Source: Deltaproteobacteria bacterium
GTDB taxonomy: Bacteria > Myxococcota_A > UBA9160 > SMWR01
DNA length: 42,035 nt
Direction: 5' to 3'
NCBI GenBank assembly: GCA_024638705.1
Contig: JAHEJV010000007.1
Coordinates: 1-42,035, forward strand
The notes below the pieces were generated by a model that had not been told where the DNA came from, did not search any database, and saw nothing but the letters and a program-made list of their open reading frames with translations. Position numbers and translations under genes: made by a program. Shown piece by piece: positions 14,875-18,758 of the stretch (positions within the stretch are counted from its first letter, which is position 1; the number at the start of each line of letters is the position of its first letter).

Positions 14875-16343
14875 TGAAGCGTCCCGAAGCCGCGCTCTTC
14901 GCGATGGCGCTGCTCACCTACGCCTATTTCTATCAGGCCGGAGGGTGGAACCAGAACGTCCGGCTCGATCACACGCGGGCGATCGTCGAGCAGGGCACGA
15001 ACCGGATCGATGCCTATGCGGCGAACACCGGCGACAAGGCGTGTCGCGGGCCGCAGGGTCGCTGCATCGCCGCGCGCCCCGGCGTCGACCACTACTATTC
15101 GGACAAGGCGCCGGGCGTCTCGTGGCTCGCGGTCCCGGTGTGGGCGGCGGTGACGTCGGCGCGCGGCGATCGCAGCGAAGCGGCGTTGGTGGCGCTCGGA
15201 TCGTACCTCGCGACCGTCTTCGTCGTGGCATTGCCGGCGGCGCTCGCGGTCGTCGCGCTCTTCGGCCTGCTCCGCGCGCTGGCGCTCGACGAGAAGACGA
15301 GCGCCGGGTTGTGTCTCGCCTGGGCGTTCGGGACGCTCGCTTTTCCCTACGCGACGTTGCTGCATGGCGTCCAGGTCGCCGCGGCGCTCGGGGCGATCGG
15401 GTTCGCCGCGCTCGTCCGCTGGCGCGACGATCCAGAGGGGCCGCGCTTCGCCACGTCACTCGCCGCCGGGCTGTCCCTCGGTGCCGCCGTCGCCGCGGAG
15501 TATCCCGCCGCGATCGTGGCCGGGGCCGTCTTCGTCTACGCCGCGACCCGGCCCTGGCGCGCGCGTCCGCGCATCCTGGCCGGGTTGCTGGTCGGCGGCG
15601 CGATCCCGGCGATCGCGCTGGCCGCCTATCACGCGACCGTCTTCGACGGCGCCTTCACCACGGGCTACGCCTTCTCGACCCAACCCCACCGCGGATCCGG
15701 CGCCTTCATGGGGATCGGCGCGCCGCGTCTCGACGCGATCGTCGGCATCACGTTCTCCCCGTACCGCGGACTCTTCTTCACCGCGCCCTGGCTGCTGCTC
15801 GCTCTGCCGGGTTGGTTTTGGCTCTGGAAGCGCGCGCGTCCGGAGGCGGCGGTGGGTCTCTTCGTCGCCGGTGCGTTCTTCTGGATGAACGTGTCCCTGC
15901 TCGACTGGCAGGGAGGCTGGGCGTCGGGACCGCGCTACCTCGCGCCGTCGCTGCCGTTCTGGGTCGTCGGCGTGGCCGGGGTCTTCCTCGCGGTGACGGA
16001 GCGGCATCGAAAGCGGCTCGGGTGGGCTTTCGTCGCCCTCGCCGGCCTCTCCGCCGCGTTCATGCTGGTCGCGACGTCGGTCGGCCCGGAAGTGAGCGAG
16101 CGGATCGAGCGTCCCTACGCGGAGCATCTGATTCCGCGGTTCGTGGCGGGCGATCTCGCCGGCAACCGGCAATCGTTCGAGATGGTCCGGCCCGCACCGA
16201 ACGGGCCGCGCCACGCGTGGAATGTCGGCGAGCGCCTCGGGCTCGAGGGGCTCGCGAGCCTGCTCCCGCTCGCCGGGATCTGGTTGGCGTGCGCGGTGTG
16301 GCTCCGCAGCACCTTCGGGCGCACCGGAGCCGCGCGGGAATAG
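14874..16343 (+). CDS. Polytopic membrane protein, glycosyltransferase (RgtA/B/C/D-like) family
   Basis: The product is 489 aa from ATG 14874. A first helix (AALFAMALLTYAYFYQAGG) leads into a loop with RLDHTRAIVEQG, then DHYYSDKAPGVSWLAVPVW, a pattern seen in GT-C-like membrane proteins. About ten more helices follow, with GGWASGPRYLAPSLPFWVVG before the last ones. The likely role is lipid-linked sugar transfer at the membrane; the substrate is unknown. An upstream in-frame ATG at 14799 would start within the 27-bp repeats and add a 25-residue Arg-rich tail before the first helix, so I prefer 14874, which overlaps the leader stop. It converges with the PEP-CTERM gene 7 bp away. Confidence 0.72.
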   Translation: MKRPEAALFAMALLTYAYFYQAGGWNQNVRLDHTRAIVEQGTNRIDAYAANTGDKACRGPQGRCIAARPGVDHYYSDKAPGVSWLAVPVWAAVTSARGDRSEAALVALGSYLATVFVVALPAALAVVALFGLLRALALDEKTSAGLCLAWAFGTLAFPYATLLHGVQVAAALGAIGFAALVRWRDDPEGPRFATSLAAGLSLGAAVAAEYPAAIVAGAVFVYAATRPWRARPRILAGLLVGGAIPAIALAAYHATVFDGAFTTGYAFSTQPHRGSGAFMGIGAPRLDAIVGITFSPYRGLFFTAPWLLLALPGWFWLWKRARPEAAVGLFVAGAFFWMNVSLLDWQGGWASGPRYLAPSLPFWVVGVAGVFLAVTERHRKRLGWAFVALAGLSAAFMLVATSVGPEVSERIERPYAEHLIPRFVAGDLAGNRQSFEMVRPAPNGPRHAWNVGERLGLEGLASLLPLAGIWLACAVWLRSTFGRTGAARE

Positions 16344-16350
16344 CGCGCGC

Positions 16351-17064
16351 CTAGCGTCGCATGCGCCTCCGCGCTGCGAGGCCGATCAGCCCGCTGCCCA
16401 GTAGCAGCGCCGTGCCGGGCTCGGGGATCGGAACCGCCGCGAACTCCCTGATCGTGACCGACGACGTGTTGGTGATGTTCGTGAACACGAGGCGGATCGT
16501 CTGGATGTCGTTCGCGTCGAGGTTCGGGAAGATCGCGAGATCGATGAAGTTGTTCCCGTTGGTGAGCGCGACCGGTGCCGCGGTGTTCACCTGTCCGATC
16601 GGGTTGGTCGGGTTGAACGACTCGTAGAGGTAGACCTGGACCTTGGCCCCCGGACCGGTCGTCGAGACGTTGAGCAGCAGGTTCGTCGCCGTGCTGAAGT
16701 CGGCGCCGAGCACGCCGGGCGGGATCAGGTTTGCCGCGCCGTCCGCGATGCCGTCGTAGTAGAGGTTGAACGAGGCGTTGAAGCTCGAGTCGTGCGAGAG
16801 GGTGAGCGAGCCGCCCGAAACCTCAGCCGTGGCGGTGTCGCCGACACCCGCGGCGCGGGCGTTGGTGAGGCGGACGCCACCGAGCACGCTGCTTCCGGGA
16901 AGCCCGCTCTGCTCGGCGAAGGTCGGCTGGGCGATGTCGCCGCTGTCGACGAGGACGAAATCGCCGGACTCGAAATCGTCGATGATCGTGGTGGTCGCGG
17001 CTGCGGGTGCGACCAGGGCGATCGTGGCAATGGCAGCAATCGAGGGGCTGAGCAGGTGCTTCAC
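16351..17064 (-). CDS. PEP-CTERM sorting domain-containing exported protein
   Basis: The 237-aa product has a signal peptide (KHLLSPSIAAIATIALVAPAAAT), a Gly/Asn/Thr-rich all-beta mature region, and a C-terminal VPIPEPGTALLLGSGLIGLAARRRMRR tail: Pro-Glu-Pro, a transmembrane helix and a basic cluster. This tail is cut by an exosortase (EpsH/XrtA type), which is not in this window, and such proteins are usually tied to exopolysaccharide or biofloc. The mature part (DDFESGDFVLVDSGD, FNLYYDG, LANITNTSS-like strands) resembles jelly-roll surface domains. Start GTG 17064 is supported by AGGAG 7 bases upstream. A sigma-54-type promoter and a nested hairpin precede it. Confidence 0.85.
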   Translation of the reverse strand: MKHLLSPSIAAIATIALVAPAAATTTIIDDFESGDFVLVDSGDIAQPTFAEQSGLPGSSVLGGVRLTNARAAGVGDTATAEVSGGSLTLSHDSSFNASFNLYYDGIADGAANLIPPGVLGADFSTATNLLLNVSTTGPGAKVQVYLYESFNPTNPIGQVNTAAPVALTNGNNFIDLAIFPNLDANDIQTIRLVFTNITNTSSVTIREFAAVPIPEPGTALLLGSGLIGLAARRRMRR

Positions 17065-17089
17065 GGAACTTCTCCTGGTGATCGGAACA

Positions 17090-17132
17090 GGGAAGTCCGG
17101 ACGCACGGCGACACGCCGTAGCCCCCCTTCCC
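17090..17132 (-). promoter_or_regulatory. Nested hairpin in the PEP-CTERM 5' leader
   Basis: Inner arms ACGGCG (17105-17110) and CGCCGT (17114-17119) pair perfectly around a 3-nt loop. Outer arms GGGAAG (17090-17095) and CTTCCC (17127-17132) can pair outside them. The structure would lie between the predicted transcription start and the AGGAG ribosome site, so it could affect stability or translation. No known riboswitch consensus was recognised. Confidence 0.4.
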
Positions 17133-17152
17133 AAGGGCGCGCAGGAGAAGAC

Positions 17153-17168
17153 AGCAAGGATTGTGCCG
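17153..17168 (-). promoter_or_regulatory. Sigma-54 (RpoN)-type promoter for the PEP-CTERM gene
   Basis: Read on the minus strand, the site is CGGCAC-N5-TTGCT. It matches the -24/-12 consensus TGGCAC-N5-TTGCW except for the first base, with the required GG-N10-GC spacing. The predicted start lies near 17141, giving a leader of about 77 nt to GTG 17064. PEP-CTERM genes in several proteobacteria are RpoN/PrsR-dependent (established), which supports the call. Confidence 0.65.
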
Positions 17169-17404
17169 AGAGCGGATTCTTCCAACGAAAACGGAAGGTT
17201 TGGACCCTAACGACCGTGTTCGGGCGGGAGAGGTGAAATCCCGTCTGTTCCCCGCAGGCCGACGCGGAACGTCCCGCCGAAGAAAGGGAAAAAGTTTTCT
17301 TCGATTGGCGAACGGCTTGCCCAGACGGGTCGAACCGGGGCATCTCGCAGCACTTAGACGCTCGGCCGTCAGTACCACGCGCGCGACTCGCAGTCGCCGA
17401 TCCG

Positions 17405-17432
17405 CTCGTCGATGGGGTGTCCCATCGACGAG
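17405..17432. terminator. 12-bp perfect hairpin with 4-nt loop, possible terminator
   Basis: CTCGTCGATGGG (17405-17416) pairs completely with 17421-17432 around GTGT. No T-run flanks it on either strand. It lies 170 bp downstream of the thiolase stop on the minus strand and ahead of the PEP-CTERM promoter, so it may insulate the two units. Termination is not proven by the sequence. Confidence 0.4.
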
Positions 17433-17603
17433 CCGCCGGAGCGCGGTGGTGAGTCCGAGCGCCGCGAATCCGCACATCGACGCGATCGGATTGGCGGCCA
17501 CGGGCGGCGCGATGCCGGTGAGCCACCAGACGGCCGCGAAGATTCAGCAGGCGAGGGCGAGCCCGGGAACTCGCGGCCCCACCCGCATGGGAAGCCCGTT
17601 CGC

Positions 17604-18758
17604 CTAATCCCGACCCAGGATCGCGATGCCGCAGGTCGTCGGCGGACCCCCGATGTTGTGGGAGAGTGCGAGGCTCGCGCCTTCCACCTGCCGCGGCCCG
17701 GCGCGTCCCTGCAGCTGCAGCGTGTTCTCGTAGATCATCCGCACGCCGGTCGCGCCGGTCGGATGCCCGAAGGTCTTGAGGCCCCCGTCCGTGTTCACCG
17801 GCAGCTCGCCGTCGAGCTGGAAGGTGCCACTGGCGATGTGGTCCTTTGCTTCGCCCTTCTTGCACAGGCCGAGGTCTTCGTAGGTGAGCATCTCGGTGAG
17901 CGTGAAGCAGTCGTGGAGCTGCACGACGTCGAGCTCGCGGAAGGGCTCGGTGATGCCGGCCTGGGCGTAGGCGTCCTTCGCGGCGTAGATCGTCGGCTTC
18001 CAGGCGAGGAAGTCGAAGTCGGGGTCGCGCTGGGGATGCTCCGCGACGGCGATCGAAACGGCCTTCACCATCACCGGGTCATCGCGGAAGCTCTTCGCGA
18101 GGTCGGCGCGGGTGATGACGCAGGCGGCGGCGCCGTCGCTCTGGGCCGCGCAGTCGAACAGGCCGAAGGGCCACGAGATGATGCGCGCCTTGAGCACGTC
18201 GTCGACGGTGATCTCCTTCTTGAGCATCGACTTCGGCGCGAGCGTGCCGTTGTGGTGGTTCTTGACGGCGATCTTCGCGAGATCTTCCCGGCCCGCGTCG
18301 AAGGTCTCGAAGTAGCGCGCCGCGCACAGCGAGAACCAGCCGGCCGGCGTCGACGGCAGCCCGCGTACGCGGTCGAAGGCCACCGACGGGCCGGACACGC
18401 CGCGGTCCTTCGGCTTGTCGAAGCCGACGACGAGCACGGTGTCGTACATGCCGCACGCCACCGAGAAAACGCCGAAACGGAACGCGTCGGTGCCGGTCTG
18501 GCAGTAGTCGGAGACGATGCTGATCGGCTTGCCGAAGAGCTTGAGCGCTTCGGCGATCTCGGCGCTGCCCTCGCGCGGATAGACCGCGCCGGCGAACACC
18601 GCCTCGATGCGGTTCTGCGGGTCGTCGATGCCGGCGTCGGCGTAGGCCTCGTAGGCCGCGTCGACGATCATGTCCTCGCGGCTCTGGTCCCAGTTCTCGC
18701 CGAACTGGCACGCGCCGACGCCGACCACGGCCACCTTGTCTCGGATCGATTCGCTCAT
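17604..18758 (-). CDS. SCP2-type thiolase family protein (acetyl-CoA acetyltransferase-like)
   Basis: This 384-aa thiolase probably cleaves a beta-ketoacyl-CoA, or condenses two acyl-CoAs. Cys86 in SDYCQTGTDAF is the expected nucleophile, His282 in HDCF replaces the Asn-Glu-Ala-Phe block as in SCP2-type enzymes, and GHPTGATG (His332) and a late Cys (PPTTCGIAI) complete the usual set. The length is normal for the family. A GGAG precedes ATG 18758. It lies 33 bp after the HMG-CoA-synthase-like/DUF35 fusion on the same strand, so that protein may be its partner; DUF35 proteins are common accessory subunits of such thiolases. Confidence 0.87.
   Translation of the reverse strand: MSESIRDKVAVVGVGACQFGENWDQSREDMIVDAAYEAYADAGIDDPQNRIEAVFAGAVYPREGSAEIAEALKLFGKPISIVSDYCQTGTDAFRFGVFSVACGMYDTVLVVGFDKPKDRGVSGPSVAFDRVRGLPSTPAGWFSLCAARYFETFDAGREDLAKIAVKNHHNGTLAPKSMLKKEITVDDVLKARIISWPFGLFDCAAQSDGAAACVITRADLAKSFRDDPVMVKAVSIAVAEHPQRDPDFDFLAWKPTIYAAKDAYAQAGITEPFRELDVVQLHDCFTLTEMLTYEDLGLCKKGEAKDHIASGTFQLDGELPVNTDGGLKTFGHPTGATGVRMIYENTLQLQGRAGPRQVEGASLALSHNIGGPPTTCGIAILGRD

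Follow-up and report, generated by a model that had tools for sequence, protein, structure and literature searches.

In front of 99 of 167 PEP-CTERM genes of Proteobacteria, Haft et al. (2006) describe sigma-54 motifs, accompanied by an upstream motif of 17 nt that ends in TTTACA (PMC1569441). The promoter-to-start distance has a mean of 71 (s.d. 38.5), and the regulation of proteobacterial PEP-CTERM genes is tied to PrsK, PrsR and PrsT (PMC1569441). Among the species that the paper discusses, the motifs occur only in Proteobacteria; many PEP-CTERM genes, both in and outside Proteobacteria, lack them, and the paper expects further regulators to be found (PMC1569441). In the available text on Aquincola tertiaricarbonis RN12, which has PrsK and PrsR, the pepA gene has a mapped -24/-12 promoter (TGGCAC, CTGCTT) and RpoN-dependent transcription (PMC9850573). 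PrsR and PrsK are also reported for Geobacter sulfurreducens in the part of the source cited here (PMC7726332).

We analyzed a window of 42,035 nucleotides (the whole stretch of DNA presented) and the genome to which it belongs, an assembly of 4.76 Mb in 505 contigs that is 90% complete (here the own genome, G000). The arrangement that we predict has several elements in common with the Prs system of Haft et al., as far as the cited sections describe it: a sigma-54 motif ahead of PEP-CTERM genes, a putative enhancer motif farther upstream, an activator of the NtrC type, a link to exosortase and exopolysaccharide (EPS) genes, and a similar promoter-to-start distance (89 nt here). The candidate enhancer appears to differ. 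Here it is GGAA-N6-TTCC, located about 100-160 bp upstream, often in tandem and without the TTTACA of the published motif, whereas that of Haft et al. is, in the text description, 17 nt long, ends in TTTACA and is located about 63 nt upstream. Like pepA of RN12, the gene in the window is a PEP-CTERM gene with a putative -24/-12 promoter; RpoN dependence was shown for pepA (PMC9850573, cited in part), and the window protein scores 31 bits with the PepA family, under the cut-off of 80. We read the genome as encoding a PEP-CTERM sigma-54 regulon of known type, but apparently with a different activator and enhancer. We found no literature on this enhancer or activator for PEP-CTERM genes in a search that covered mainly papers available without subscription.

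A predicted sigma-54 promoter upstream of a PEP-CTERM gene

The gene and its predicted start signals are as follows:

16351..17064, minus strand: PEP-CTERM protein gene with a GTG start, 237 aa, with PF07589 and TIGR02595 matches
17069..17076, minus strand: ribosome-binding site AGGAGAAG, a good site by sequence
17142, minus strand: predicted +1, 12 nt after the GC, placed by sigma-54 geometry
17153..17168, minus strand: putative sigma-54 -24/-12 promoter element CGGCAC-N5-TTGCT, from sequence and enrichment upstream of PEP-CTERM genes

The 237 aa protein has the C-terminal PEP motif, hydrophobic segment and arginine cluster of PEP-CTERM proteins, and its sorting signal is over the cut-offs of both PF07589 (28.8 bits, E 1.2e-6, cut-off 20.7) and TIGR02595 (21.4 bits, cut-off 16). 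A signal peptide was identified by eye. A tblastn search of the genome contigs with an alignment of the protein gave no close relatives, and the other 284 genomes searched contain one weak match. A paralogue on contig C499 encodes a protein that is 42% identical and has the same promoter arrangement.

The promoter element is AGCAAGGATTGTGCCG on the plus strand (17153-17168) and CGGCACAATCCTTGCT on the minus strand (17168-17153). Ten bases separate the GG (17167-17166) from the GC (17155-17154), which is the strict GG-N10-GC spacing, and 9 of the 10 specified bases of TGGCAC-N5-TTGC are matched. Compared with TGGCAC-N5-TTGCW there is one mismatch (C for T), and the base after CAC is A, not G. 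The element is intergenic, on the strand of the gene and 89 nt from the GTG at 17064. The original prediction, made from the sequence, described a minus-strand sigma-54-type motif with strict spacing and one mismatch, and it is correct in both sequence and place; its start near 17141, 77 nt before the GTG, becomes about 17142 and 78 nt here.

The CGGCAC-N5-TTGCT string alone is within chance for 42 kb, and it is the context that gives it credibility. The count of GG-N10-GC by itself in the window is close to expectation (976 versus 983 expected). There are 4 window sites that match TGGCAC-N5-TTGC with at most one mismatch, compared with 1.4 expected, and 8 of 100 shuffles reach 4. The one-mismatch counts are also no higher than those of the reversed control, with 75 sites against 101 in the own genome (final W included) and 3490 against 4230 in 17 genomes of the family. 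These numbers would fit a chance match that is no promoter, a reading that we consider very unlikely given the strand, distance and intergenic position of the element, the similar arrangement at the C499 paralogue, a dyad at the distance typical of the family, the enrichment before PEP-CTERM genes across the family (both described below) and the result that no sigma-70-like promoter was found in 16300-17640.

The stricter pattern YGGCAC-N5-TTGC is commoner than its control in the own genome (31 sites against 10 reversed). Included among these are sites upstream of genes similar to amtB (twice), glnK, flagellin and flgB, all named by eye; these four are usual sigma-54 targets. The genome encodes rpoN, the absence of which had been named as a result that would speak against the promoter, in two copies (PF04552, 220.7 and 211.5 bits, cut-off 22.8). 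They are found on contigs C25 (L001) and C417 (L002). We consider the promoter credible because of the excess of the strict motif, the enrichment before PEP-CTERM genes and the enhancer-like dyad upstream, and positions 17153-17168 are very probably a real sigma-54 promoter before the gene for a sorted surface protein.

Sigma-54 sites upstream of other PEP-CTERM genes

The own genome has 15 PEP-CTERM matches over the cut-off, and all 17 family genomes searched have such matches, 372 in total. For the upstream comparison, a script with a home-made rule picked 136 PEP-CTERM-like genes from 100 fetched stretches among the best of the 372 matches, plus the loci given by searches. The set includes 16 genes of the own genome (3 with a sigma-54 site) and 120 from 16 relatives (12 with a site); L041 and L048 were not picked, the wrong ORF was taken in at least L047, and L050 and L051 are included though they are below the PF07589 cut-off.

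Sigma-54 sites with up to one mismatch occur within 300 nt upstream of 15 of these 136 genes, compared with 2 for the antisense strand, 1 for the reversed motif and 1 inside coding sequence (each out of 136). Whole-genome counts predict 0.9, compared with 14 when the window gene is left out (Poisson P about 1e-12). In the extreme case that all such sites of the family preceded some gene, and with an assumed gene density, the enrichment would have a P of 0.009. The genes with a site in the own genome are the window gene, the C499 paralogue and a gene on C452, whose PEP-CTERM product matches GDSL-type lipase families below their cut-offs. The two besides the window gene compare with 0.06 expected in 14 (P 0.002). 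A scan of this kind had been proposed with the original prediction, and the motif, the sorting signal of the gene and the family-wide enrichment together support its claim of a sigma-54 promoter ahead of a PEP-CTERM gene. That a strong site is found in only 15 of 136 PEP-CTERM genes counts against the regulation that we propose below.

A candidate enhancer upstream of the promoter

Two further features are predicted upstream of the promoter element:

17287..17300, minus strand: candidate enhancer dyad AGAAAACTTTTTCC, GGAA-N6-TTCC with one mismatch, scored with a weight matrix, 132 bp upstream of the promoter element
17266..17269, minus strand: TTCC half-site, exactly 21 bp from the dyad on its downstream side, matching the tandem register of the relatives; weak alone

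The six-base spacer is distinctive: GGAA-N6-TTCC has 21 matches in 16 of the 136 upstream regions, and every other spacer from 0 to 16 gives 0-6. With one mismatch allowed in each motif, the dyad is found in 13 of the 15 genes with a sigma-54 site versus 23 of the 121 other genes (P 3e-7). It is located upstream of the promoter, at a distance of 100-159 bp in 21 of 27 cases. Tandem dyads are frequent, and 9 of 11 close pairs are spaced by 21-24 bp, about two helical turns. Based on these patterns, GGAA-N6-TTCC is a candidate enhancer.

A weight matrix made from 65 dyads, all of other genomes, gives the window dyad a score of 18.2 (P 0.0006, GC-matched 0.0024). The C452 dyad has two mismatches (P 0.003, GC-matched 0.004), and the C499 dyad is weak (P 0.026, GC-matched 0.083). 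All three PEP-CTERM promoters of the own genome (window, C452 and C499) have imperfect dyads, and none of the four exact dyad-promoter sites of this genome precedes a PEP-CTERM gene.

Across 60 genomes there are 239 matches to dyad-N95-125-GGN8TTGC and 27 to its reversed form; the counts for the 17 family genomes are 70 and 3. Eight of 30 dyad-promoter loci from the 60-genome search precede PEP-CTERM ORFs. Among the family sites with at most two sigma-54 mismatches, 15 of 52 precede PEP-CTERM genes, as read from the protein tails, and two more probably do (L300, which is cut by a contig end, and L301). The automatic call was 20 of 52, from which L290, L292, L297, L311 and L321 were removed, as the displayed ORF is not PEP-CTERM; the contigs of L290 and L292 (C353 and C417) have no PF07589 match. 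The sites with three or more sigma-54 mismatches (17 of 69) were treated mostly as background; nevertheless, L231, L296, L302 and L306, which have weak sigma-54 sites, precede PEP-CTERM-like ORFs. Other sites among the 52 are located before genes for a conserved 162-aa protein, a membrane protein of small size, small proteins that resemble regulators, and a hybrid regulator, and the predicted regulon is therefore wider than PEP-CTERM.

Some of these other genes recur. The 162-aa protein (MKRGVGYCENT-CEDYAKGVFLLNHGDTFYCPRC...) is encoded behind a dyad and sigma-54 site in three genomes (L235, L334 and L225), as is a small membrane protein of 110-120 aa, also in three genomes (L291 on contig C393 of the own genome, L239 and L222). 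The hybrid protein of the own genome (L290:3533-5479 on C353, minus strand) contains AAA+ lid and HisKA domains and could be a kinase of the circuit; an exact dyad precedes its gene, as does a perfect sigma-54 site. In another genus, a gene encoding a similar N-terminus has the same arrangement (L243, on contig C451 of G005).

Leader and intergenic region

The region between the predicted +1 and the start codon contains the following:

17065..17142, minus strand: predicted 5' leader, 78 nt, partly conserved with the C499 paralogue (alignment and fold)
17124..17132, minus strand: leader element GGGAAGGGG, which recurs upstream of PEP-CTERM genes
17105..17119, minus strand: hairpin ACGGCG-NNN-CGCCGT, common to the C499 paralogue

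The GGGAAGGGG element has 17 matches in 16 of the 136 PEP-CTERM upstream regions, with none antisense and none in coding sequence. The leader folds mildly better than shuffled sequences (z -1.74). In Rfam, positions 16900-17620 have three matches, each scoring far under the gathering score of its family, and no known riboswitch. We dropped an RNA model for the leader: within the genome its pattern, GGGAAGGGGGNNNACGGCGNGTCGCCGTG with up to three mismatches, matches only at the window gene and C499, with one match in the reversed control. We also considered, by eye, whether a short upstream reading frame encodes a leader peptide, and discarded the idea because the frame shows no conservation.

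The motif GGGAAGG is present in 11 of the 15 sigma-54-positive PEP-CTERM genes versus 18 of the 121 others. It follows 13 of 65 dyad-promoter sites at a distance of up to 130 nt, versus 1 antisense, and is often near the predicted transcript start. Between the end of a thiolase gene (17604, minus strand) and the PEP-CTERM promoter there is a perfect 11-bp inverted repeat at 17404-17433 (GCTCGTCGATG...CATCGACGAGC), with no T-run.

An NtrC-type activator encoded beside an exosortase

The own genome has four PF09721 exosortase matches over the cut-off. Three are strong, and the fourth (25.5 bits) is over the cut-off only with its neighbours. On contig C251 an exosortase gene (TIGR02602, over the cut-off) is found with an EpsI-like gene and a carbamoyltransferase gene, both named by eye. 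A gene for an NtrC-type activator (C251, 5640-7097) is divergent from these, and the gene after it is for EPS export (TIGR03027, 148.8 bits, under the cut-off of 180). The activator contains receiver, Sigma54_activat and Fis-type HTH (HTH_8) domains, with a GAFTGA motif and the receiver motif LDVVLP. Its scores for NtrC, AtoC and PrsR are all under the respective cut-offs. NtrC (TIGR01818) is the best-scoring family (445.5 bits) and has the same domains; unlike NtrC, the activator is below the cut-off of that family (558.6) and is encoded in an exosortase/EPS locus.

Relatives of the activator (71-83% identity) adjoin an exosortase in 19 of 43 named loci, 15 of which are Myxococcota or Deltaproteobacteria by title. 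Seven of the 43 are too short to judge, and the activator is absent from 17 of the 36 that are long enough to tell (Nitrospira, Desulfuromonadales, the PVC group and others). In a tree with long branches among the other activators, 18 of the named-locus relatives and the own-genome activator form one fully supported clade, apart from Nitrospira PrsR. The HTH end ISYKALLYKMKE-GL is present in all 13 readable activator rows, the other 7 of 20 being misframed or cut. No adjacent kinase gene was found in three named loci (L247, L252 and L253), based on crude ORF calls read by eye.

Two metagenome-assembled genomes, titled Spirochaeta sp. (L262) and Leptolyngbyaceae cyanobacterium (L266), have exosortases that are 54% and 58% identical to that of the own genome. 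The activator is present in L262 and absent from L266. It is possible that these are mislabelled or contaminated bins.

Exact dyads occur within 300 nt upstream of 11 of the 20 exosortase-locus activator genes, and 9 have none; other spacers give 0-3 matches upstream of these 20 genes (spacers 1 and 5 give 3 each). For other activators, an exact dyad is upstream in 1 of 15 rows, which represent 11 distinct genes (four were fetched twice), three of them Nitrospira; the exception is on C431 (L062). In 315 kb of exosortase loci, 12 of 25 dyads fall within the 6 kb upstream of the activators, and the own-genome activator gene is preceded by one exact and two near dyads. A dyad before the gene of the activator suggests autoregulation, and we assign the dyad to this activator because the dyads upstream of its own gene would fit such control. 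The promoter and enhancer could both be real and the dyad be bound by another NtrC-like activator or by a regulator that is not sigma-54 dependent. There are many other regulators in the own genome that match TIGR02915 (44 stretches, many of which match through the receiver part alone), the same dyad core occurs in papers on Caulobacter and methanogens, in the portions available, and the predicted regulon reaches beyond PEP-CTERM genes. The concentration of dyads upstream of the exosortase-locus activator, compared with that single case among other activators, argues against this, and we regard a different binding protein as unlikely.

A PrsK/PrsR pair had been predicted elsewhere in the genome, and in the 90%-complete assembly nothing is over either cut-off. 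The best match to PrsR (TIGR02915) has 422.6 bits versus a cut-off of 502.6, and the best to PrsK (TIGR02916) has 107.7 versus 300. As a positive control, two Nitrospira proteins encoded in exosortase loci reach 616 and 605 bits with the PrsR model, compared with 405 and 404 for two of the exosortase-locus activators. Canonical PrsK/PrsR might activate the promoter if the pair is encoded in the 10% of the genome that the assembly lacks, or is too divergent to reach the cut-offs. In favor of this, the genome has PEP-CTERM and exosortase genes, a gene for EPS export and sigma-54 sites, the 89-nt distance agrees with the mean published by Haft et al., and, in the text cited above, the pair is reported in G. 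sulfurreducens. Against this, beyond the scores, the recognition helix of the activator (ISYKALLYKMKENGL) differs from that of PrsR (ISRPTLYQLLDRYGL) and the dyad has no TTTACA. We find activation by PrsK/PrsR improbable, and the exosortase-locus activator appears to be a better candidate than PrsR for the dyad-linked promoter. Overall, the original prediction is supported for the sigma-54/PEP-CTERM link, rpoN, the enrichment and the exosortases, which were to be looked for, and is not supported for PrsK/PrsR.

Proposed regulation

We predict, with a probability of about 0.7, that the sigma-54 PEP-CTERM promoter is activated via upstream GGAA-N6-TTCC dyads by the NtrC-type activator of the exosortase locus. 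What can be read from the genomes is the putative promoter, the dyad, how the two are associated from one genome to another, and a conserved activator gene preceded by dyads. The related genomes suggest that activation comes from boxes upstream of the promoter, through a regulator that is encoded next to the exosortase and is not PrsR.

The activator, with its receiver, AAA+ domain with GAFTGA, and Fis-type HTH, would be produced from the exosortase/exopolysaccharide locus and phosphorylated, the signal probably being phosphorylation by an unlinked kinase. It would then bind one or two GGAA-N6-TTCC dyads about 130 bp upstream, if activator and dyad are correctly paired, and a DNA loop would bring it to RNA polymerase-sigma54 at CGGCAC-N5-TTGCT (17168-17153). 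There it would drive ATP-dependent opening of the predicted promoter. The activator may also control its own gene through the same dyad. Since the activator is encoded with the EPS/exosortase locus, the PEP-CTERM protein would be made alongside the exopolysaccharide and the exosortase, which handle it.

We lean slightly toward a broader reading, in which this is a second circuit that is not of the Prs type. An orphan NtrC-type activator in the exosortase/EPS locus of a Myxococcota-like order would read tandem GGAA-N6-TTCC enhancers and control its own gene, the PEP-CTERM genes and other genes with envelope and regulatory roles, among them that of the hybrid AAA+/histidine-kinase protein, and the GGGAAGGGG leader may be a second, RNA-level layer.

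If the proposed regulation is true, sigma-54, exosortase and PEP-CTERM genes are linked beyond the classic Prs system as well, through another activator and another enhancer. For a lineage that is known here mostly from metagenome-assembled genomes, this would define a box in the DNA and a candidate protein and would predict a regulon.
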